Translations under genes and position numbers: made by a program | Shown here: positions 1 to 9,044 of the stretch, piece after piece | Numbering within the stretch: the stretch's first letter is position 1 | Layout of the letters: every line of letters starts with the position of its first letter | The notes under the pieces: generated by a model | What the model was told of the DNA's origin: nothing | What the model saw: only the letters and a program-made list of their open reading frames with translations | Databases searched by the model: none | Origin: Pectobacterium brasiliense | Lineage (GTDB): Bacteria; Pseudomonadota; Gammaproteobacteria; Enterobacterales; Enterobacteriaceae | Length of the DNA stretch: 64,000 nucleotides | Assembly (NCBI RefSeq): GCF_016950255.1 | Contig: NZ_JACGFN010000001.1 | Span: 2,294,001 to 2,358,000, forward strand | Reading direction: 5' to 3'

Positions 1-322
1 TTTGAAAAGGTAAAATGCGGGTAACGACCCCAGACAGGGATACAACCAGGGTCAAGATAAGAATCGTAAAAAATATTTCCATGCTTTCCTTAGACGTACT
101 CCTAAATCAAAAAATTCTGCCTGTTAGCGAGCAAACTGCTCTTCCATATTTAACGCATTTCGCTCGGTATGAAAATGGATTTCTGGGTGAAGAAGAAAAG
201 TAATTACTTCTCTGATTATCACACAAGTAACATCAACCCAAAGCCAATAAAAAGGCACATAAAATCGCGTTTAGCGTGGGAAATGATAAGGAAGGGAAAG
301 AGGAAGGACAGACAAGGAATGA
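1..322. other. Gene-free stretch at the left edge
   Basis: I can support no gene here. Short open frames exist, the longest about 60 codons starting near position 15, but none has a recognisable domain, a good Shine-Dalgarno sequence or a typical composition. The stretch is AT-rich after about position 60 and lies downstream of ghxP, which is transcribed towards it. It may be the upstream region of a gene beyond the left edge. Confidence 0.4.
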
Positions 323-352
323 CAGACCTTCTGGACGATGCCAGAAGGTCTG
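323..352 (-). terminator. Rho-independent terminator of ghxP
   Basis: A perfect 12-bp stem (CAGACCTTCTGG / CCAGAAGGTCTG) closes a 6-nt loop, 10 bp beyond the ghxP stop codon. On the minus strand it is followed by a moderately T-rich tail (TCATTCCTTGTC). The strong stem and its position support a terminator; the T-run is weak. Confidence 0.75.
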
Positions 353-362
353 TTGGAAAGGA

Positions 363-1718
363 TTACAGCGCCCAGCCGCCAGCGTAGAACACCACCAGCG
401 CGACAGCAATCACCACGGTGCCGATGTTCAGTTTACGCCATTCGCCGGAGAAGATGCGGCCTAGCACCAGCGCGCCAAAGCCCAGCATGATACCGGTCAC
501 GATGTTACAGGTCAGCACGATGAATACGGCACATACCAAACCGGACATGGCATCGACGAAATCATCAAAGTTCAGTTTGGAGACATTGCCCAGCATCAGC
601 AGGCCGACGTACATCAGCGCGGGTGCGGTGGCATAGCCAGGCACCAGATACGCTAACGGAGACACAAACAGCAACAGCAGGAACAGGACACCGACAACGG
701 TTGCCGTTAAGCCCGTTTTACCACCGGCTGCCGTACCCGCTGCGGATTCGATGTAAACCGCAGCCGGAGACGTTCCGACCAGACTGGAGAAAATGCTGCT
801 CACGGAGTCTGCGGTCAGGGCTTTACCACCGTTGATGATTTGCCCGTCTTTATCCAGCAGGTTTGCCTGTCCGGCTACCGCGCGGATCGTACCCGTGGCA
901 TCAAACACAGCGGTCATTACCAGCGCCAGCACGCTCGGCAGAACCATCGGCTGCAATGCGCCCATGATATCCAGACTGAAGATCAGCGACGAACCGTCAG
1001 CCGCCGTCAGGCTCGGCAGCGCAAAGAAGCCAGCGTATTTTACCTTCGGGTCAAAAATCAGCCCCAGAATAGAGATCGCGATGATAACCAGCAGAATACC
1101 GCCCGGTACGCGACGCTTCTCTAAACCGATAGTCGCCGCCAGCCCCAGCAGGGACATAATGACAGGGAAAGAAGTGAAATCACCCAGCGCGACCGGCAGA
1201 CCGTCAATCGGGTTTTTTACCACCAGACCGACACCGTTGGCGGCAATAATCAGCAGGAACAGACCGATACCAATCCCCGTACCATGCGCCACGCCCATCG
1301 GCAGGTTACGCAAGATCCAGGAGCGGATGCCTGTGACGGAAATGATGGTGAACAGCACACCCATCAGGAAGATCGCTCCCAGCGCCACAGGAATGCTGAT
1401 TTGTTGCCCCAGCACCAGACTGAACGCGGTGAATGCCGTCAGCGAAATCGCACAGCCGATCGCCATTGGGAGATTGGCCCACAATCCCATCAGCAGCGAC
1501 CCCAGCCCGGCAACCAGACAGGTTGCAACGAACACGGCTGCCGGCGGGAAGCCGGCCTTGCCCAGCATACTCGGCACCACAATCACGGAGTAAACCATCG
1601 CCAGGAACGTCGTCAGGCCAGCTAACACTTCCTGACGCACGTTACTACCGCGCTGTGTAATTTTGAAAAAAGCATCAAGCGAGCCTTGTGAGCCTACCTG
1701 ACGGGTGGTGTTTGACAT
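363..1718 (-). CDS. ghxP: Hypoxanthine/guanine permease of the NCS2 family (GhxP type)
   Basis: This 451-residue inner-membrane protein should import hypoxanthine and guanine with protons. The sequence is hydrophobic throughout with about a dozen membrane segments and matches what I recall of E. coli GhxP (YjcD) nearly end to end. Examples are the N-terminal FKITQRGS and [16 protein letters not shown] region, the [20 protein letters not shown] stretch, the [14 protein letters not shown] loop, and the C-terminal [17 protein letters not shown]. That is the AzgA-like branch of NCS2, not the uracil/xanthine branch. The ATG follows an AGGGGA Shine-Dalgarno sequence. It stands alone with its own terminator, and a PurR-like half site lies about 115 bp upstream. 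The adjacent allantoin genes make this a purine-salvage neighbourhood. The close paralogue GhxQ shares most of these motifs, so the exact paralogue is slightly less certain than the family. Confidence 0.9.
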
Positions 1719-1831
1719 GGTGGTATCCCCTGAAATGCCATTATTATTTAAGATCGATTCTTACGATTCCCGCGGCCTTGCTCCGCGAATGCACCAACAT
1801 CGCTGGCGCATCATGAACCGTATAGCTCCGC

Positions 1832-1847
1832 ACGCAAACGATTAACT
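1832..1847 (-). promoter_or_regulatory. Candidate PurR operator upstream of ghxP
   Basis: The sequence ACGCAAACGATTAACT matches the PurR consensus ACGCAAACGTTTGCGT at 12 of 16 positions, with one perfect half (ACGCAAACG). It lies in the ghxP upstream region, where a purine repressor would make sense. The right half is poor, so this is a suggestion and not a firm site. Confidence 0.4.
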
Positions 1848-2171
1848 CGCTGGATGCAAAGCTGGAAAACGTTGCTATATCAAGACACTGCTGTACCAAA
1901 AACAGGCTGAACTAAACAAGCTGGATAAGGCGGTGTCAGGCAATGTGAAGCGCGTGATTATCCCGCTTCACCCGCGCTTATTTCAACTGCTAATCGAGAC
2001 AATTTACCTATCTCACGTCATCTGTCCGATAACGAAGCGCACAGCCAGTACAGGTAATGCTCAATCAGGCCACTCGCTGAAAATGGGGCAGTATGAAGAA
2101 AAAGCAGAACGGGTTCTTAGACGAAAATCAAAACAGCGGTTTACTCCTCACAAACTGATCGTTCATTTTTT
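1848..2171. other. Gene-free stretch between ghxP and the micro-ORF unit
   Basis: No coding sequence is supported. An open frame runs through from about 1933 in frame with the first micro-ORF, but it lacks a ribosome binding site, crosses the promoter elements at 2172-2222 and has no recognisable domain. No convincing RNA structure was seen. Confidence 0.4.
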
Positions 2172-2187
2172 TGTGATTCGCATCACA
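2172..2187 (+). promoter_or_regulatory. CRP (or FNR-like) binding site
   Basis: TGTGATTCGCATCACA carries both perfect CRP half-sites, TGTGA and TCACA, separated by 6 bp. It sits directly upstream of a good -35 element (2194). Its centre is about 49 bp before the predicted transcription start, between the usual class I and class II positions. The site is read directly from the sequence; CRP as the binding protein is inferred from the consensus. Confidence 0.75.
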
Positions 2188-2193
2188 AAAAAG

Positions 2194-2222
2194 TTGACCA
2201 CCCGTATCAGTACGAGTATTCT
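2194..2222 (+). promoter_or_regulatory. Sigma70 promoter of the micro-ORF unit
   Basis: A -35 box TTGACC (2194-2199) and a -10 box TATTCT (2217-2222) are separated by 17 bp, placing transcription start near 2229. It lies just downstream of the CRP-type palindrome and about 50 bp before the first micro-ORF. Confidence 0.6.
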
Positions 2223-2277
2223 TAAAAACGTGAACAGCATCACAGAAAACAAATCAACTAACAACGAGGAAATGACC

Positions 2278-2349
2278 ATGAAACTGCTGAACAAAATCAT
2301 CGCTATGTTTGAAAACATCAACATCAACTTTGGTACTTTCAACCAATAA
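2278..2349 (+). CDS. Micro-ORF 1, 23-residue peptide of unknown function
   Basis: I do not recognise this peptide. It starts MKLLNKIIAMFEN and ends NFGTFNQ; the first half could form an amphipathic helix and the second half is rich in Asn and Phe. An ACGAGGA Shine-Dalgarno sequence lies 7 bp before the ATG at 2278; the in-frame ATG at 2272 is too close to it. The ORF sits in a complete small transcription unit: CRP-type palindrome, sigma70 promoter, this ORF, a second micro-ORF 28 bp downstream, and a terminator. The signals make translation likely. Alternatively it could be a leader peptide controlling the second ORF, or the unit may act mainly as a small RNA. Confidence 0.55.
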   Translation: MKLLNKIIAMFENININFGTFNQ

Positions 2350-2377
2350 TTATTTAAGAATCGTGGGGATAAAAAAG

Positions 2378-2464
2378 ATGCGCGTTGTCCGCAAAATCAA
2401 TCAAATATTAAAAGCGTTGGGCAAAACCTATCGCGGTGTTAACCCCCACGCTATCTTCCGTTAA
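2378..2464 (+). CDS. Micro-ORF 2, 28-residue strongly basic peptide of unknown function
   Basis: I do not recognise this peptide. It begins MRVVRKINQILKALGKTYRG and ends in NPHAIFR, with five Arg and three Lys, a His and no acidic residue, so it is highly basic. A GGGGAT Shine-Dalgarno-like sequence lies 7 bp upstream of the ATG. It follows micro-ORF 1 by 28 bp and precedes a small perfect hairpin (CGTAC-TCAA-GTACG, 2466-2479) and a T-tailed terminator. Positive charge with a central hydrophobic stretch is compatible with RNA, membrane or protein binding, but nothing shows which. Confidence 0.5.
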   Translation: MRVVRKINQILKALGKTYRGVNPHAIFR

Positions 2465-2490
2465 TCGTACTCAAGTACGTTAACCACCCT

Positions 2491-2519
2491 AAAATGGCTG
2501 CCATCCGGTAGCCATTTTT
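2491..2519. terminator. Terminator of the micro-ORF unit, probably bidirectional
   Basis: A 9-bp stem AAAATGGCT / AGCCATTTT closes a 10-nt loop and is followed on the plus strand by TTTTTGTTT. It ends the micro-ORF transcript. The A-rich 5' arm gives a T-run on the minus strand as well, so it may also terminate the hpx operon that ends at 2541. Confidence 0.75.
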
Positions 2520-2540
2520 GTTTCCAGTATTCTCTGAGTT

Positions 2541-3500
2541 TTACGGCGCGATATACGGATGATGCTGACGCCAATGCTCGGCGATATCCTGACGGCGGCA
2601 AATCCATACTCGCTCATGCTGTTGAACGTAATCCAGAAAACGCTGTAACGCACGGAAACGGCCTGGCCGCCCTAGCAAACGACAGTGCATCCCGATGGAT
2701 AGCATTTTAGGTGCGGTTTCACCTTCCTCGTAGAGCACATCAAAACTGTCTTTCAGATAGGTGAAAAACTGATCTCCGCTGTTAAACCCCTGTGGTGAGG
2801 CAAAACGCATATCATTAGCATCCAGCGTATACGGCACGATCAGATGCGGCTGCACCTCACCATTGCTTTTTTTGACCGGCATCCAGAATGGCAGATCGTC
2901 ACCGTAGTAGTCGCTGTCGTACCAAAAGTTGCCGTTATCGACGACCAACTGGCGGGTATTGGGACTGTCGCGGCCGGTGTACCAGCCAAGCGGAGCCTGA
3001 CCAAATAACGTCGTCAGCACAGTAATGGCTTTATGCATGTGCTCGCGTTCGGTGTCGATATCCATATGCTGGTAATGAATCCAGCGCCAGCCGTGGCTCA
3101 CTACGTCATAATTAGCCAACTTGATCGCCTCGACCACAGCGGGATTACGCGCTAATGCCATTGCCACACCAAATACCGTCAACGGCAATCCGCGGCGCTG
3201 AAACTCATTATGGATACGCCAAAAACCGGCGCGTGATCCATATTCATACAGAGAATCCATCGACATATGACGATCCGCATAACTCGCCGCACCAATAATA
3301 TCGGACAGAAATTGCTCGGATCCGGCGTCACCATGTAAGACGTTATTTTCCGCACCTTCCTCGTAGTTCAATACAAACTGCACGGCAATGCGTGCATTTT
3401 CAGGCCAGTTAGCATGCGGGGGCTGTCCCGCATAGCCGATCAGGTCACGGGGGTAATCGCTCTCAATGCCGTACATCGTTGCAGCAGGTGCTGTGATCAT
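2541..3500 (-). CDS. hpxB: Allantoinase of the polysaccharide-deacetylase family (PuuE/HpxB)
   Basis: This 319-residue cytoplasmic enzyme should open the hydantoin ring of allantoin to give allantoate. It is the PuuE type, related to polysaccharide deacetylases and unrelated to the amidohydrolase allantoinase AllB. Family features are visible: the YPRDLIGYAG start, VQFVLNYEEGAE, SRAGFWRIHNEFQRRGLPLTVFGVA (both NodB-like regions), VSHGWRWIHYQ and the C-terminal GMHCRLLGRPGR. I place the start at ATG 3500, 6 bp after AAGGG; an upstream TTG at 3518 would overlap the racemase stop but is less likely. It is the last gene of hpxS-hpxA-hpxB, with 14 bp to the racemase gene. Symbols follow the Klebsiella hpx system, which has the same set of genes. 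Confidence 0.87.
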   Translation of the reverse strand: MITAPAATMYGIESDYPRDLIGYAGQPPHANWPENARIAVQFVLNYEEGAENNVLHGDAGSEQFLSDIIGAASYADRHMSMDSLYEYGSRAGFWRIHNEFQRRGLPLTVFGVAMALARNPAVVEAIKLANYDVVSHGWRWIHYQHMDIDTEREHMHKAITVLTTLFGQAPLGWYTGRDSPNTRQLVVDNGNFWYDSDYYGDDLPFWMPVKKSNGEVQPHLIVPYTLDANDMRFASPQGFNSGDQFFTYLKDSFDVLYEEGETAPKMLSIGMHCRLLGRPGRFRALQRFLDYVQQHERVWICRRQDIAEHWRQHHPYIAP

Positions 3501-3514
3501 GTCCTTCCCTTCTT

Positions 3515-4252
3515 TCAACGCAGCGAACTAAACATGCCGCTCAGCGGCTTGGCAATCGGGTAATCCAAATCGCCCTGTTTACTGGTCGTCAATCCCAGTG
3601 CCGACAATGACTCAATCAGCTTGACGGCAGCACTGACGCCGTCGATCACAGGAATCGACAGTTCTTGCGTCAGCTCCTGCGCCAGATCGGCCATTCCACC
3701 GCACCCAAGTACAATCGCTCCCACGCCATCCTGACGCAGAGACTGTATACAATATTCACGCACCTTGTTCTGTGCGATCCCGCTATCCTGCTCCAGCGCA
3801 AGCACCGGCAAATCGATCGCGTGCAGCGCAGCACAGTGATGTTCAAAGCCATAGCGCTGTAGTAAATGGCGGGCGATGATGACGGTGCGCGGTAATGTGG
3901 TAACAATCGAGAAGCGCGTTGCCACCAGCGTCGCCATATGCATGGCGGCTTCGGCGATGCCGATGACCGGCTTGCTGGCCACTTCACGGGCAGCAAGCAG
4001 ACCTGGGTCGCCGAAGCAGGCAATAATGTGCCCGTCAACGCCCTGCGCTTTACCCTGCGTCACCTGTTCCAACACGCCAATCGCGGCTATCGCTTCGTCA
4101 AAATGTCCCTCAATAGACGGCGCGCCCTGAGAAGGACACACTGCGACAATCTCCGTTCCTGGCGATGCCACAGCGCGAGCCGCGGCACCGATCGTTTCGG
4201 TCATGGCAAGGCTGGTATTGGGGTTAATCACCTGAATTACGCAAGGTTTCAC
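3515..4252 (-). CDS. hpxA: Allantoin racemase, Asp/Glu/hydantoin racemase family (HpxA)
   Basis: This 245-residue protein belongs to the two-cysteine hydantoin/aspartate racemase family and should interconvert R- and S-allantoin so that a stereospecific allantoinase can use both. The N-terminus IQVINPNTSLAMTETI is typical. The two catalytic cysteines are present at Cys79 (ACFGDPGL) and Cys184 (VLGCGGMADL), the positions I recall for the Klebsiella enzyme. Its start overlaps the end of the regulator gene by 4 bp (ATGA), so the three genes are translationally coupled. The neighbouring allantoinase and allantoin-type permease choose allantoin over other hydantoins as the substrate; that step is inference from context. 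Confidence 0.87.
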   Translation of the reverse strand: MKPCVIQVINPNTSLAMTETIGAAARAVASPGTEIVAVCPSQGAPSIEGHFDEAIAAIGVLEQVTQGKAQGVDGHIIACFGDPGLLAAREVASKPVIGIAEAAMHMATLVATRFSIVTTLPRTVIIARHLLQRYGFEHHCAALHAIDLPVLALEQDSGIAQNKVREYCIQSLRQDGVGAIVLGCGGMADLAQELTQELSIPVIDGVSAAVKLIESLSALGLTTSKQGDLDYPIAKPLSGMFSSLR

Positions 4253-4971
4253 GCGAGCTTCTCCCTGATATGGCCGAACAGTCGGCGGAAATCCGGCTCC
4301 ACGTTGTCATCCCGGTCAAAACGCAGGCTGGCAACAATGTCATCAAAATGCTGCGTCATCGCTTCCGCTAACCCTGAGACATTTTTATCCCGTAGTAACG
4401 CCAGCAGATCGTGATGATCGTGGCATCGACACCCCTGCTGCCACGGCGTGCCATAGGCCGCGATAACCAGTGATGAGCGCAGCGTCAGTTGCGACACGAT
4501 TCCTGTTAGCACGGTATTGCCAGAGATCGCCTGGAGTTGAATATGGAATGCGGCAGACAGGCGGATCGCTTCTGCACCGTTTTGGTCTGCGTGTGCCTGC
4601 TGCTCTGCCACGATCAGCCGCTCTAACGCCGTCAAGTGAGGAGACTGGCAGTGCAGCACCACTTCAGACAGATTGGCACACTCAATAAAGCGGCGAGTCT
4701 GGAAAATTTCCTGCGCTTCTTCAACGGAGGGGGTCGACACCTGCGCACCACGTTTGGGCGTTAACGTCACCATCTGCACCATAGCAAGACGTTGTAAGAC
4801 TTTTCTAATTCCCGTTCGACTCACATCAAACACCTCTGCCAGCGCTTCCTCCGGTAATTTGGTGCCCGGCAGTAATTGGTGTTCGACGATAGCGTTGAGC
4901 AGAGCCTGATAGATAACATCATCTTTTTGCTGCAAAAACTGCTCATTTTCCAGTCCGTAAGTGTAGTTCAT
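4249..4971 (-). CDS. hpxS: GntR-family (FCD subfamily) regulator of allantoin genes
   Basis: The 240-residue protein has an N-terminal winged helix of GntR type (about residues 15-80, with EEALAEVFDVSRTGIRKVLQRL as the recognition region) and a C-terminal all-helical FCD ligand domain with the usual Arg (about 93) and metal-binding His residues (FHIQLQAISGN, HDHHDLLALLRD). It is the first gene of the racemase-allantoinase operon and is divergent from the permease gene. Two GTATAC operators, the type of site used by FCD GntR proteins, lie between them. It most likely represses both directions and responds to allantoin or a product, as HpxS does in Klebsiella. The ligand is not visible from the sequence. 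Confidence 0.83.
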   Translation of the reverse strand: MNYTYGLENEQFLQQKDDVIYQALLNAIVEHQLLPGTKLPEEALAEVFDVSRTGIRKVLQRLAMVQMVTLTPKRGAQVSTPSVEEAQEIFQTRRFIECANLSEVVLHCQSPHLTALERLIVAEQQAHADQNGAEAIRLSAAFHIQLQAISGNTVLTGIVSQLTLRSSLVIAAYGTPWQQGCRCHDHHDLLALLRDKNVSGLAEAMTQHFDDIVASLRFDRDDNVEPDFRRLFGHIREKLA

Positions 4972-5004
4972 TCGCTCTTCTCGTTGTCACATTCTCATCA
5001 AATC

Positions 5005-5032
5005 GTATACAGAAAATATAAAATATGTATAC
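5005..5032. promoter_or_regulatory. Twin GTATAC operators in the hpxS/hpxC divergent promoter
   Basis: Two copies of the palindrome GTATAC (5005-5010 and 5027-5032) lie 22 bp apart centre to centre, about two helical turns, in an AT-rich segment between the divergent regulator and permease genes. FCD-type GntR proteins commonly bind T-x-GTATAC-x-A sequences, so HpxS is the likely binder. The repeats are visible; the binder is inferred. Confidence 0.65.
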
Positions 5033-5122
5033 AAGAAATTAATTTTGGCCTGATTAATGCAACTCCTTTTCTACATACATAACGTCATTCATTTCACGAC
5101 TAGGGTAAAAGGAGCAGATTCC

Positions 5123-6607
5123 ATGCCAGAAAAAATGATTACAGGTAATGGTAGCAACGCGTACAGTCCAAAACTCTGCAATGAGGATCTGGCACCGACA
5201 CGTACTCAAACCTGGTCTTGGTACAACATCTTTTCATTCTGGATGTCAGATGTGCACAGCATGGGCGGATACGTGGTTGCAGCCAGCTTTTTCGCGCTGG
5301 GGCTGGCAAGCTGGCAGGTGTTGCTGTGCCTGCTTGTGGGCATCTGTATTGTGCAGGTCTGCGCAAATTTGGTCGCGAAACCCAGCCAGATGAGCGGCGT
5401 TCCTTATGCGGTGATTTGCCGTCAGGCATTCGGTGTCTTTGGCGCGAATATTCCCGCCGTCATCCGTGGCCTCATCGCTTTTGCCTGGTACGGCATTCAG
5501 ACGTATCTGGCCGCGCATGCACTCATGCTGGTTCTGCTGAAGTTTTATCCTGCGCTCTCCCCACTGACACAGAGTCACTGGCTCGGCCTGTCAGCTCTGG
5601 GTTGGATCTGCTTTGGCATCATGTGGTTCCTGCAGGCTCTCGTGTTCTGGCATGGCATGAACGCGATTAAACGCTTTATCGATTTTGCAGGTCCGGCGGT
5701 TTATGTGGTGATGACGGCGCTTGCGATCTGGATTGTTTATCAGACCGGATGGGAGAATATTTCTTTTACGCTGACCAGCAAAACACTTACAACCAGCGAG
5801 CAACTTTGGCAAATGCTCACCGCCACTGCGTTGGTCGTTTCCTACTTTTCCGGCCCGCTGCTGAACTTCGGTGACTTTTCCCGCTACGGTAAAAGCATGC
5901 AGGAAATCCGTCGGGGCAACCGCTGGGGTCTGCCGTTCAATTTTCTGCTGTTCTCTATTATCACCGTGGTGATCGTTTCGGGTACACAGTCATTATTCGG
6001 CCGCATGATTACCGATCCGATTGAAACCGTCTCGCATATTGACAGCGGCTTTGCCGTCGCGCTTGGCGTGCTGACTATGATTATCGCCACCATCGGGATC
6101 AATATCGTTGCTAACTTCGTCTCATCAGCGTTTGATTTTTCCAACTGTTCACCGCAGCGTATCAGCTTCCGCACGGGTGGAATGATCGCCGCAGTCGGAT
6201 CCGTATTGCTCACGCCGTGGAACCTTTTCAACTCGCCAGAGCTGATTCACTACACGCTTGACGTACTCGGCGCCTTTATCGGCCCGCTGTTCGGGATTCT
6301 ACTGATGGATTTCTATGTCATCAAAGGAGGGAAAGTCTATGTGGACGATCTGTTCGACGCGACGCCAAAAGGGAAGTACTGGTATCGAAACGGCTTTAAT
6401 CCGAATGCGATAATGGCGTTAATTCCCGCGGTGACCATTGGGCTGATTATCACCTTCACGCCACAGTGGCGCGATGCGGCCAACTTCAGTTGGTTTATCG
6501 GCGCATTCCTTGCTGCTGGCTGCTACCGCTATCTGGCACGCCGCGAATGCGTTGGCGCAATGAAAAAATCCTTCGCTCCACGCGGGCTACTGTTAGAAAA
6601 AGAATAA
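5123..6607 (+). CDS. hpxC: NCS1-family permease, probable allantoin transporter (HpxC)
   Basis: This 494-residue integral membrane protein belongs to the NCS1 nucleobase/hydantoin transporter family, with about 12 membrane segments. Visible NCS1 features include NIFSFWMSDVHSMGGYVVAA near residue 40, RQAFGVFGANIPAVIRGLIAFAWYGIQTYL, LLNFGDFSRYGKS and NFVSSAFDFSNCSPQRISFR. The ATG at 5123 has an AAAGGAG ribosome binding site 8 bp upstream; an open frame continues 22 codons further upstream but without such a site. Its divergent arrangement with a GntR regulator, allantoin racemase and allantoinase points to allantoin, as with Klebsiella HpxC. Other NCS1 members take cytosine, uracil or hydantoins, so the substrate is a contextual inference. 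Confidence 0.82.
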   Translation: MPEKMITGNGSNAYSPKLCNEDLAPTRTQTWSWYNIFSFWMSDVHSMGGYVVAASFFALGLASWQVLLCLLVGICIVQVCANLVAKPSQMSGVPYAVICRQAFGVFGANIPAVIRGLIAFAWYGIQTYLAAHALMLVLLKFYPALSPLTQSHWLGLSALGWICFGIMWFLQALVFWHGMNAIKRFIDFAGPAVYVVMTALAIWIVYQTGWENISFTLTSKTLTTSEQLWQMLTATALVVSYFSGPLLNFGDFSRYGKSMQEIRRGNRWGLPFNFLLFSIITVVIVSGTQSLFGRMITDPIETVSHIDSGFAVALGVLTMIIATIGINIVANFVSSAFDFSNCSPQRISFRTGGMIAAVGSVLLTPWNLFNSPELIHYTLDVLGAFIGPLFGILLMDFYVIKGGKVYVDDLFDATPKGKYWYRNGFNPNAIMALIPAVTIGLIITFTPQWRDAANFSWFIGAFLAAGCYRYLARRECVGAMKKSFAPRGLLLEKE

Positions 6608-6622
6608 AACATCATCAGCAGT

Positions 6623-6649
6623 GCCGCACCGCATGAAAACCGGTGCGGC
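6623..6649. terminator. Hairpin between convergent hpxC and lpxP
   Basis: A 9-bp GC-rich stem GCCGCACCG / CGGTGCGGC with a 9-nt loop lies 15 bp after the hpxC stop and 24 bp before the lpxP stop. There is no good T-run on either side, so it may act as a transcript end or stabiliser and less as an efficient intrinsic terminator. Confidence 0.5.
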
Positions 6650-6673
6650 GCTTCGCATCAGGCGCAGTTCTCA

Positions 6674-7597
6674 TCAGGCATACAGAGACACTTCCCCTGC
6701 CGGACGGGTTTTAAAGCGACGGTGCAGCCAGAGGTACTGTTCGGGTGCACGCATGATTTCTTTCTCAATCACCTTATTCATGTAACACGCCGCAGCCTGT
6801 TCATCGTGATAAGGATAATCCTGTAATTCAGGCTGAATCACCAGTTGATAACCCAAGGCATTGGGTTTGCGAATCAGCACTGTCGTCATCATCGCTGGTT
6901 TTGCGAGACGGCTAATCGTGTATGTGCCACTCGTGGTTGCCGCATTTTTCACCGCAAAGAACGGGGCAAAAACACTGCCTTTAGGGCCGTAGTCCTGATC
7001 GGGAGCAAACCATACCGCTTCACCCCGTTTTAGCGCTTGCACCATGCCACGCAGATCTTTACGGTCGATCATCGCTTTGTTGGAACGAGACCGTCCCCAG
7101 GTTTGTACCATTTCCATCGCTTTATTATTGTGCGGACGGTACATCGCCATCATTGGTCGACACAGCCCCATCGCCCTACCGCCCAGCTCCAACGACATAA
7201 AGTGAATACCAATCACCATTACGCCCTGACCTTTTGCGGTCGCGTGCTGTAAATGCTCCAGCCCTGAAACATCAAACCACTGGCGCACGCGGCGATCGGA
7301 CCAGAACCAGGCCATACCGGTTTCGACTAATGCCATCCCGAGCGAAGCGAAGTTATTGTCGATCATCGCTTCTCTTTTATCGTCGGAGATCGTAGGAAAG
7401 CACAATTCAAGATTGCGTCTGGCAATCAACACCCGGCGTTTCAGGAAGAGCCGGGATAGACGACCTGCACTGCTACCGAGTTTCATCAGCAGCGGATAAG
7501 GGAGTTGAACTAATAAAAACAGCACGCCAAGACCAAACCAAGTCGTCCAATAGCGCGGGTGGAGTAATGCCCTGGTAAATGTTTGCTTAATCTTCAT
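6674..7597 (-). CDS. lpxP: Lipid A acyltransferase, LpxP/LpxL family (palmitoleoyl type)
   Basis: This 307-residue inner-membrane enzyme adds the secondary acyl chain to Kdo2-lipid IVA. The HX4E active-site motif is at His132-Glu137 (HFMSLELGG), as in the E. coli enzymes. Other shared stretches are HPRYWTTWFGLGV, ETGMAWFWSD, MYRPHNN, WFAPDQDYGPKGS and the C-terminal MRAPEQYLWLHRRFKTRP. A membrane anchor covers about residues 20-40. I choose the ATG at 7597 (MKIKQTF) with GACGAG upstream instead of an earlier start 12 codons away. By my memory of the E. coli proteins the sequence resembles LpxP, the cold-induced palmitoleoyl transferase, more than the lauroyl transferase LpxL. The stretch upstream is long and empty, which leaves room for regulation, but no cold-shock element was identified. 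Confidence 0.8.
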   Translation of the reverse strand: MKIKQTFTRALLHPRYWTTWFGLGVLFLLVQLPYPLLMKLGSSAGRLSRLFLKRRVLIARRNLELCFPTISDDKREAMIDNNFASLGMALVETGMAWFWSDRRVRQWFDVSGLEHLQHATAKGQGVMVIGIHFMSLELGGRAMGLCRPMMAMYRPHNNKAMEMVQTWGRSRSNKAMIDRKDLRGMVQALKRGEAVWFAPDQDYGPKGSVFAPFFAVKNAATTSGTYTISRLAKPAMMTTVLIRKPNALGYQLVIQPELQDYPYHDEQAAACYMNKVIEKEIMRAPEQYLWLHRRFKTRPAGEVSLYA

Positions 7598-7973
7598 GAT
7601 ACTCGTCTTTAAGTGATTAACAGCGTACCGCATAAAGAGTCGTTCTCATCGCGCTACATCTATCATGACACTTTTTTATAGGGATCGTTTCAACTGTGTG
7701 GAAAACTGTTTCTGGCTGTTATCACGCGTGAGGTTAAAAAGCAGAATAAACATGCTGATAACACTGAGGGGATTTTGAGCAGCCGATGAACGGTTAACGG
7801 CAGCGGCATCATACCCGATTCACGTTTAATAAAGGAGTGGTCGGACAAGAAATATTCGCAATATCACGCCGTCTCACGCTAACATCTTGGTATATGTCAA
7901 AAAAGCGACGGGCCTTCTGACAGCGAAAATAGGCCAGCAGCAAGCTACAACGTAATCAAGGACTTGATGGAAA
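7598..7973. other. Intergenic region between divergent lpxP and the DUF1176 gene
   Basis: This 376-bp stretch holds the upstream regions of two divergent genes. I found no coding sequence, no clear operator and only weak promoter-like matches (for example TATAAA read towards lpxP near 7675). Its length would accommodate a structured leader for lpxP, but no structure is evident by eye. Confidence 0.4.
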
Positions 7974-9044
7974 ATGACTTTTTCTCTCCCTCCCCGCCTC
8001 CCTATGCTAACCGCACTGATCACGGGGATTCCTGTTATGGCGTTTGCTACAACCTTCGCTGATAGCACTTTTTTTCATAAAGACTGGGAAGTGGTCTGTG
8101 ATAACACGCTAACGTGCCGGGCTGCCGGCTACTCGCCAGAAGAGCAGTACACGGGAGAAGAGGAAGATGTGCCAGGTGTCTCACTGCTTCTCACGCGCCA
8201 TGCCGGGCAAAATACGCCAATAACGGCTGAGGTTACGCTCGCTGAGGTAGAAAAGGAAATTCCTAAAGGCACCAAGCTCACGCTAACCGTTGACGGTGTC
8301 GATAAAGGCCTACTCACCTCAACCGGAGACAATCTCTGGCAGCTCAATGAGACGCAGATTCCCCTCGTCCTACAGGCTCTAAAAGGAAGCGGGAAAGTGG
8401 CTTTTCATCACAATGGTGTCGTTTCCGAACTGTCCGGGGCGGGTGCCTACGCGGGACTGCTAAAGATGGATGAGAAGCAAGGTCGCATTGGGACAACGGA
8501 TGCCATCACCAAAAAAGGAAATAAAAACAGTGTATTATCTGCTGTAGCTGCCCCCGTTATCAACGCAGCAGCCACTAAGCAGGAGGCATCGCGGACTCTG
8601 ACGGATGCAGAACAGTCGGCTATCCAGAAAAAACTGCTTAAGACGTTAAAAGCAGATGACTGCGACAGTTTCCCACCGCAAGATTATCAAGAAGCAGAAC
8701 CGATTGAACGCATTCCATTGAATGACAGTATGTCCCTACTCAGCACGCTTTGCTGGCGCGCGGCTTATAACGAAGGCTACGCTTACTGGGTTATCGACAA
8801 CGCCATGCAAACCCAGCCGCAGCTTGTGACCACAATCGGTGTAGGCTACGAAAACGGTGAAATTACCGCAGTACAGAAAGGGCGTGGACTCGCGGACTGC
8901 ATGAGCTATAACGCATGGATATGGGATGGCAAAGCATTCCAGCAGAGCAGTGCATCGTTCACAGGTTCATGCCGTATGATCCGCCTGGGCGGCACCTGGG
9001 ATTTACCCTACTGGACGACGACGGTGGTGAAACCGGGTAAATGA
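7974..9044 (+). CDS. DUF1176 family exported protein
   Basis: This 356-residue protein looks exported: a hydrophobic N-terminus of about 28 residues ends in MAFATTFADS. The mature part begins with FHKDWEVVCDNTLTCRAAGYSPE, the characteristic opening of DUF1176 proteins ("W-x-V-x-C-D-N-x-x-x-C-x-A"), and ends with a repeat-like half containing CDSFPPQD, GVGYENGEITAVQKGRGLADCMSYNAWIWDGK and GTWDLPYWTT. Six cysteines in the mature part suggest periplasmic disulfides. The start follows GGAAA closely. The family has no established function that I know. It stands alone, with the divergent lpxP upstream, so context does not help. Confidence 0.78.
   Translation: MTFSLPPRLPMLTALITGIPVMAFATTFADSTFFHKDWEVVCDNTLTCRAAGYSPEEQYTGEEEDVPGVSLLLTRHAGQNTPITAEVTLAEVEKEIPKGTKLTLTVDGVDKGLLTSTGDNLWQLNETQIPLVLQALKGSGKVAFHHNGVVSELSGAGAYAGLLKMDEKQGRIGTTDAITKKGNKNSVLSAVAAPVINAAATKQEASRTLTDAEQSAIQKKLLKTLKADDCDSFPPQDYQEAEPIERIPLNDSMSLLSTLCWRAAYNEGYAYWVIDNAMQTQPQLVTTIGVGYENGEITAVQKGRGLADCMSYNAWIWDGKAFQQSSASFTGSCRMIRLGGTWDLPYWTTTVVKPGK

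Follow-up and report, generated by a model that had tools for sequence, protein, structure and literature searches.

A most likely CRP-repressed pair of micro-ORFs in Pectobacterium brasiliense, with apparent relatives in Yersinia Ysr206 and Escherichia coli AzuC

Is the short interval between a permease gene and an allantoinase gene of Pectobacterium brasiliense occupied by a genuine gene, and if so, what would it make and under what control? The window analysed here is the whole 64,000-nucleotide (64-kb) stretch of contig NZ_JACGFN010000001.1 that contains this interval. An earlier note, made from the letters alone, had described in it a perfect TGTGA-N6-TCACA palindrome, a promoter with a 17-bp spacer, and two ORFs of 23 and 28 codons, each with its own Shine-Dalgarno sequence; on re-reading, all of these are indeed found in the sequence. 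The features referred to below are as follows.

363-1718, minus strand: NCS2-type permease (family profiles)
2172-2518, plus strand: the whole unit, with promoter, two micro-ORFs with Shine-Dalgarno sites, and terminator hairpin
2172..2187, no strand assigned: CRP site 1, TGTGATTCGCATCACA, at -56 to -41 from the inferred start; the sole exact TGTGA-N6-TCACA in the window, found also in relatives
2194..2222, plus strand: sigma70-type promoter, -35 TTGACC at 2194-2199, 17-bp spacer, -10 TATTCT at 2217-2222 (sequence and promoter scan)
2228, plus strand: inferred transcription start, the first base of the sub-threshold Rfam Ysr206 match 2228-2448
2229..2244, no strand assigned: CRP site 2, CGTGAACAGCATCACA, 57 bp from site 1 and on the inferred transcript start; the paired spacing recurs in relatives
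2266..2270, plus strand: Shine-Dalgarno sequence of ORF1, GAGGA, 7 nt 5' of the ATG
2278..2349, plus strand: ORF1, 23 aa, MKLLNKIIAMFENININFGTFNQ, of the family of the peptide inside Yersinia Ysr206 (profile matches, pN/pS)
2356..2457, plus strand: putative helix closing over ORF2 and covering its Shine-Dalgarno sequence, 2356-2359/2454-2457 and 2362-2368/2444-2450 (folds, covariation)
2365..2369, plus strand: Shine-Dalgarno sequence of ORF2, GGGGA, 8 nt 5' of the ATG
2378..2464, plus strand: ORF2, 28 aa, MRVVRKINQILKALGKTYRGVNPHAIFR, an AzuC-like basic peptide (profile matches, pN/pS, HHalign)
2491..2518, plus strand: terminator hairpin with a 12-bp stem and a 4-base loop, followed by T (RNA fold)
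2541-3518, minus strand: allantoinase PuuE (family profiles)

The unit is thus divergent from the permease gene and convergent with puuE. Its promoter hexamers make 9 of 12 matches and, because shuffled sequences yield 1.1 such promoters on average, the promoter is not significant on its own; TTGA[CT]C with a similar -10 element is, however, kept in six aligned loci. The start at 2228 is placed by homology, and the Ysr206 match of Yersinia aldovae likewise begins one base 5' of its CRP site 2. At the other end, the "T-tailed terminator" of the earlier note is correct in outline only: a hairpin is present at 2491-2518, and one that matches it is found in most of 11 aligned loci, but the T run lies partly within the stem and a consensus terminator scanner listed none.

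The two ORFs are conserved and change in the manner of protein-coding sequence. The ORF1 profile (A1, built from six loci) matched 114 of 392 family genomes at E <= 0.1, many of the weak ones doubtful, and 63 at E <= 1e-6, while an order-wide sample gave matches in 11 of 295 genomes at E <= 0.01, one of them outside the family. The weak match outside the family, in G413, lies within a 744-codon frame and was taken as chance. The ORF2 profile matched 27 of the 392 genomes at E <= 0.1, and all 21 genomes with strong matches (E <= 2.1e-11) also carry ORF1; weak matches of either ORF are excluded from the strong counts. A scan of named species returned at least 46 ORF1 loci, among which ORF1 is identical in 8 Pectobacterium loci, P. 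versatile L130 and P. peruviense L127 being two of the named ones, and ORF2 stands beside it in 11 (8 Pectobacterium, Brenneria, Prodigiosinella and Serratia marcescens). The script listing holds no ORF2-like frame for the other 35 listed named loci (Kosakonia, Kluyvera, Klebsiella, Citrobacter, Raoultella, Enterobacter, Yersinia and others).

The earlier note had proposed to look in relatives for synonymous-biased conservation of the two frames, and this is what we find. The pN/pS ratio of ORF1 is 0.31 (51 distinct 23-codon sequences, start codon removed) against a column-shuffle mean of 0.84, with 0 of 300 shuffles as low, and that of ORF2 is 0.39 (12 distinct 28-codon sequences) against a mean of 0.86, with 2 of 300 as low; alignments read one or two bases out of frame give 0.68 to 2.8, and since the sequences are related by descent, neither the shuffle nor the out-of-frame control removes their kinship. 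These figures leave out the 24-aa versions of ORF1, the 27-aa versions of ORF2, and loci missed by the start pattern or near a locus end (e.g. L022, L028, L130). Moreover, ORF1 and its start are kept while the leaders and the downstream sequence vary.

Neither peptide belongs to a family in Pfam or NCBIfam; the lone Pfam match of ORF2 is chance-like (E 0.18). DNA searches of E. coli genomes with the ORF1-only type of unit from L044, and of plasmids with an ORF1 relative, gave no match. The earlier suggestion that ORF1 could be an amphipathic helix gains no support from the hydrophobic moment of this peptide, which is ordinary (171 of 2000 shuffles as high). The start of ORF2 has a high hydrophobic moment (8 of 2000 as high), and the remark that ORF2 lacks any acidic residue holds. 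The two ORFs do not appear to be tandem duplicates (E 0.011; 245 of 2000 shuffles as high with gaps and 134 of 2000 without).

Several variants of the unit were seen in passing. L055, L056, L057, L170 and L171 carry a relative of ORF1 of just 16 aa (MKLLHKIIAMFANYSN and similar), its start codon closely preceded by a CRP-like site, and some genomes of genus g41 match both the long and the short parts of the ORF1 profile. A strongly conserved hairpin, ACCGCTAACTAAAACGACAACACATGCGGTGTGAA (with up to 3 differences), lies 3' of ORF1 in 13 of the 46 listed named loci (L141, L144, L145, L148-L150, L152-L154, L156, L158, L159 and L163, including Kluyvera, Klebsiella, Raoultella, Pseudocitrobacter and others) and is possibly a base-pairing element. 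In genome G251, a decayed partial copy of ORF2 (L081, about 1501-1570) is found about 2.9 kb from the intact one.

At the Rfam gathering score, positions 1-8000 of the window match no family. Below it, 2228-2448 matches Ysr206 (RF02852) with 40.2 bits and an E-value of 6.1e-9, under the cut-off of 124. On the other hand, the ORF1 locus of Y. aldovae (L157) scores 129.1 bits for Ysr206 at 3954-4261, over this cut-off, and encodes at 4001 the ORF1 peptide MKLINKIIAIFEKMNVSFGTLNG; Ysr206 therefore appears to carry a conserved small protein. By sequence comparison, we regard the unit as a homologue of Yersinia Ysr206: it shares with the Y. aldovae copy the ORF1 peptide family, a CRP pair with nearly the same spacing (57 bp in the unit, 58 bp in Y. 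aldovae) and the position of the start relative to CRP site 2. The two differ in that the unit scores below the Rfam cut-off and in that its ORF2 did not turn up in the Y. aldovae copy; furthermore, Ysr206 has been described as an sRNA. In Y. pseudotuberculosis, Ysr206 has been reported as a trans-encoded sRNA that is detected when crp is mutated and not otherwise, and CRP binds cooperatively to the region upstream of it, where more than one site is predicted (PMC4376681). The term "small protein" is absent from the main text of that paper (PMC4376681).

The second CRP site of the unit, at 2229-2244, had been overlooked in the earlier note. With the start taken from the Ysr206 match, site 1 falls at -56 to -41, and the two sites are centred near -48.5 and +9.5. 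If a CRP-like site is defined as one with up to 2 mismatches in the ten core bases, two such sites 50-64 bp apart are present in all 46 listed loci of named species, and their spacing is 56-58 bp in 44 of these and 52 bp in the other two. Among 70 distinct 150-nt regions upstream of ORF1, the spacing is 56-58 bp in 67, 52 bp in two and 55 bp in one. Loci entered these counts via ORF1 or ORF2 and not via the sites; a pair at 56-58 bp arose in 2 of 14000 dinucleotide shuffles, which ignore the common descent of the loci. Given that the sites stand 57 bp apart with one on the inferred start, and that the Yersinia homologue is seen only without CRP, we conclude from anatomy and homology that CRP most likely represses the unit in Pectobacterium. 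A "catabolite-linked gene for small proteins" is thus retained from the earlier note, both as to the gene and as to the link, while the direction of control is now repression, as indicated by the site pair and the behaviour of Ysr206. The judgement that this is a complete, real unit also stands, since several genera share both ORFs, the promoter and the CRP pair.

The earlier note recognised neither peptide. ORF1 can now be assigned to the peptide inside Ysr206, and ORF2 is AzuC-like. Profile comparison by HHalign of 13 ORF2 sequences with 18 AzuC sequences gives an E-value of 1e-5 and a probability of 82 over 23 columns, most of the length of the peptide, and none of 2000 column shuffles reaches this score. 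The sequences of E. coli AzuC and its promoter come from the annotated record. The AzuC core K[DN][VI]PPG is present in 12 of the 12 AzuC matches that were read and in 29 of the best 30 of 122 genome-scan matches, and the AzuC of L107 carries KDVPPA; as the 18 aligned AzuC rows were chosen by this motif, they provide no independent count of it. ORF2 is without the KDVPPG core, which near the C-terminus is our own criterion for AzuC, and has RGVNPH or a similar string in its place, so it need not share the partner of AzuC. AzuC matches at E <= 0.1 were found in 122 of 392 family genomes and in 17 of the 21 ORF2 genomes, in the latter always elsewhere than ORF2. The genome of the window itself has one, locus L112:

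G000:C1:2105021-2105098, minus strand: AzuC, with its own upstream CRP site

This AzuC probably starts at GTG, which would make it a protein of 25 aa, shorter than that of E. coli; the relative L118 has ATG at that position. The separate presence of AzuC in ORF2 genomes indicates that ORF2 is a relative of AzuC and not its orthologue, and it rules out the unit as the AzuCR locus itself. A derivation of AzuC from ORF1 was also considered and is judged improbable: the profiles match at E 0.01 over 7 columns, a score reached by 82 of 2000 shuffles if gaps are allowed and by 30 of 2000 if they are not. By these comparisons ORF1 is not clearly related to either AzuC or ORF2.

We rate the unit as belonging to the AzuCR kind of CRP-controlled small-protein RNA. 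Like the unit, azuR has an exact CRP site at -56 to -41 from its annotated start, but in E. coli no exact second site lies on that start; the unit further differs from AzuCR in its locus and in the additional ORF1. E. coli AzuC is reported to bind and upregulate GlpD (PMC8672173, PMC10746267), and AzuCR to be repressed by CRP, its RNA pairing with the cadA and galE mRNAs (PMC8672173). The same source describes VcdRP of Vibrio cholerae as a CRP-repressed RNA with a 29-aa small protein that acts in carbon metabolism (PMC8672173); it resembles the unit by this description, and we claim no homology.

The RNA of the unit contains a putative helix in which the ORF2 Shine-Dalgarno region pairs with the end of ORF2, as found in agreement by RNAalifold (11 ORF2-bearing loci) and by the single-sequence fold. 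In its 7-pair core, 85.7% of the cells pair against 78.1% in shuffles, and the covariation score is 0.301 against 0.169 (0 of 500 shuffles as high); partners slid by 1-3 columns reach at most 59.7% pairing and a score of 0.151. Two other measures are not extreme, namely pairs changed on both sides (32 of 500, a count tied by one slid version) and further pair types (59 of 500). In 18 units, close relatives included, the mean duplex energy is -18.0 for a unit's own arms and -14.8 when arms are swapped (0 of 10000 permutations), although L005, L010, L021 and L028 show no preference for their own arm and the helix is weaker in some relatives. These data suggest that translation of ORF2 would be gated by a helix over its ribosome site.

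Four other readings of the unit have to be weighed against a CRP-repressed messenger for two peptides. That the RNA is a non-coding sRNA with accidental ORFs agrees with the listing of Ysr206 as a trans-encoded sRNA (PMC4376681) and as an Rfam sRNA family; we consider this hardly credible in view of the low in-frame pN/pS of both ORFs, set against their shuffled and out-of-frame values, and of the retention of ORF1 with its start between differing leaders and downstream sequences. Activation by CRP through site 1, with the RNA made at high cAMP, might be expected from a perfect palindrome 5' of a promoter with a non-consensus -10, and is unlikely for several reasons. Class I and II activator sites are standardly centred near -61.5 or -41.5, and the sites of the unit, with site 1 near -48, are at neither position; site 2 lies on the inferred start at a spacing that is nearly fixed across genera; and the Yersinia homologue is reported to appear only without CRP (PMC4376681). 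It is somewhat easier to imagine a dual-function RNA, which would both encode the peptides and pair with mRNAs in the manner described for AzuCR (PMC8672173). In its favour are a better fold than that of shuffled sequences (z -2.46, with 4 of 200 shuffles doing as well), the helix with its partial covariation, the discovery of Ysr206 as an sRNA (PMC4376681), and the hairpin 3' of ORF1 in 13 of 46 listed named loci; however, by eye the 5' leader, spacer and 3' tail of the ORF2-bearing loci are less conserved than the ORFs, and we regard a dual function as possible, with the balance tilting against it.

A role in purine or allantoin use, the fourth of these readings, is suggested by the neighbours of the unit in the window, the NCS2-type permease and PuuE, and by what we take to be a permease of the same type (identified by eye) upstream of ORF1 in Brenneria (L131) and Serratia (L168). 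However, the single Brenneria and the single Serratia locus inspected showed no allantoinase neighbour, and in the loci read from other genera the gene has unrelated surroundings. In what we take, from the gene sequences, to be the atp operon, ORF1 follows atpA-G-D-C in Klebsiella oxytoca (L152), Citrobacter gillenii (L146), Kosakonia quasisacchari (L134) and Mangrovibacter (L166), with the presumed glmU next after it in L146 and one further gene between them in L152, L134 and L166; in Y. aldovae it stands elsewhere, among what are presumably ychJ and rssA. Judged by these loci, the ORF1 gene does not keep its purine neighbourhood from genus to genus; the purine link of the earlier note accordingly falls away, and we think a purine function very improbable. 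As a separate observation, the Rfam sRNA STnc410 is found on the minus strand 3' of ORF1 at L146:4214-4371, where it sits in the interval before glmU, and at L050:4217-4374.

We therefore favour, with a probability of roughly 0.7, the reading of the unit as an mRNA of two micro-cistrons, homologous to Ysr206 and repressed by CRP-cAMP, that makes the ORF1 and the AzuC-like ORF2 peptides. Two CRP dimers 57 bp apart, one about 48 bp 5' of the start and the other over it, would jointly block transcription, so that the RNA would be made when cAMP is low, i.e. when a preferred sugar is present. The RNA would then be translated into the 23-aa ORF1 peptide and the 28-aa basic, AzuC-like ORF2 peptide; translation of both in Pectobacterium is predicted from the sequence. 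In the conserved helix, the ribosome site of ORF2 is paired with the end of that same ORF, which should limit its translation. By analogy to AzuC, from which the kind of target is guessed, the probable binding partner of the peptides is the inner membrane or a membrane-associated enzyme of carbon metabolism, and they may modulate such an enzyme.

Searches of the open part of the literature, with the peptide strings and RF02852 among others, turned up neither ORF1 nor a paralogue of AzuC, and a term search of the main text of two plant-pathogen transcriptome papers found neither AzuC nor a Ysr RNA. It is tempting to go further and to consider, tentatively and with the odds somewhat against it, an overlooked family of CRP-repressed micro-genes in Enterobacteriaceae, in which an ORF1 of about 23 aa and a paired CRP switch are placed at varied genomic sites and to which one group has added a helix-gated, AzuC-related peptide. 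The two peptides could then act together at the membrane as a module that is triggered by sugar and tunes a respiratory or glycerol-phosphate enzyme, and a catalogued sRNA would really be a peptide gene. ORF1 is found in numerous gut- and plant-associated relatives, and in Yersinia it lies within an RNA reported as an sRNA; this indicates that a catalogued sRNA encodes a conserved protein. AzuC gains a relative in the same genome, and the unit provides a conserved two-site CRP switch. Very small proteins overlooked by gene finders appear to belong to that part of the CRP regulon which is repressed by CRP and active at plentiful sugar.
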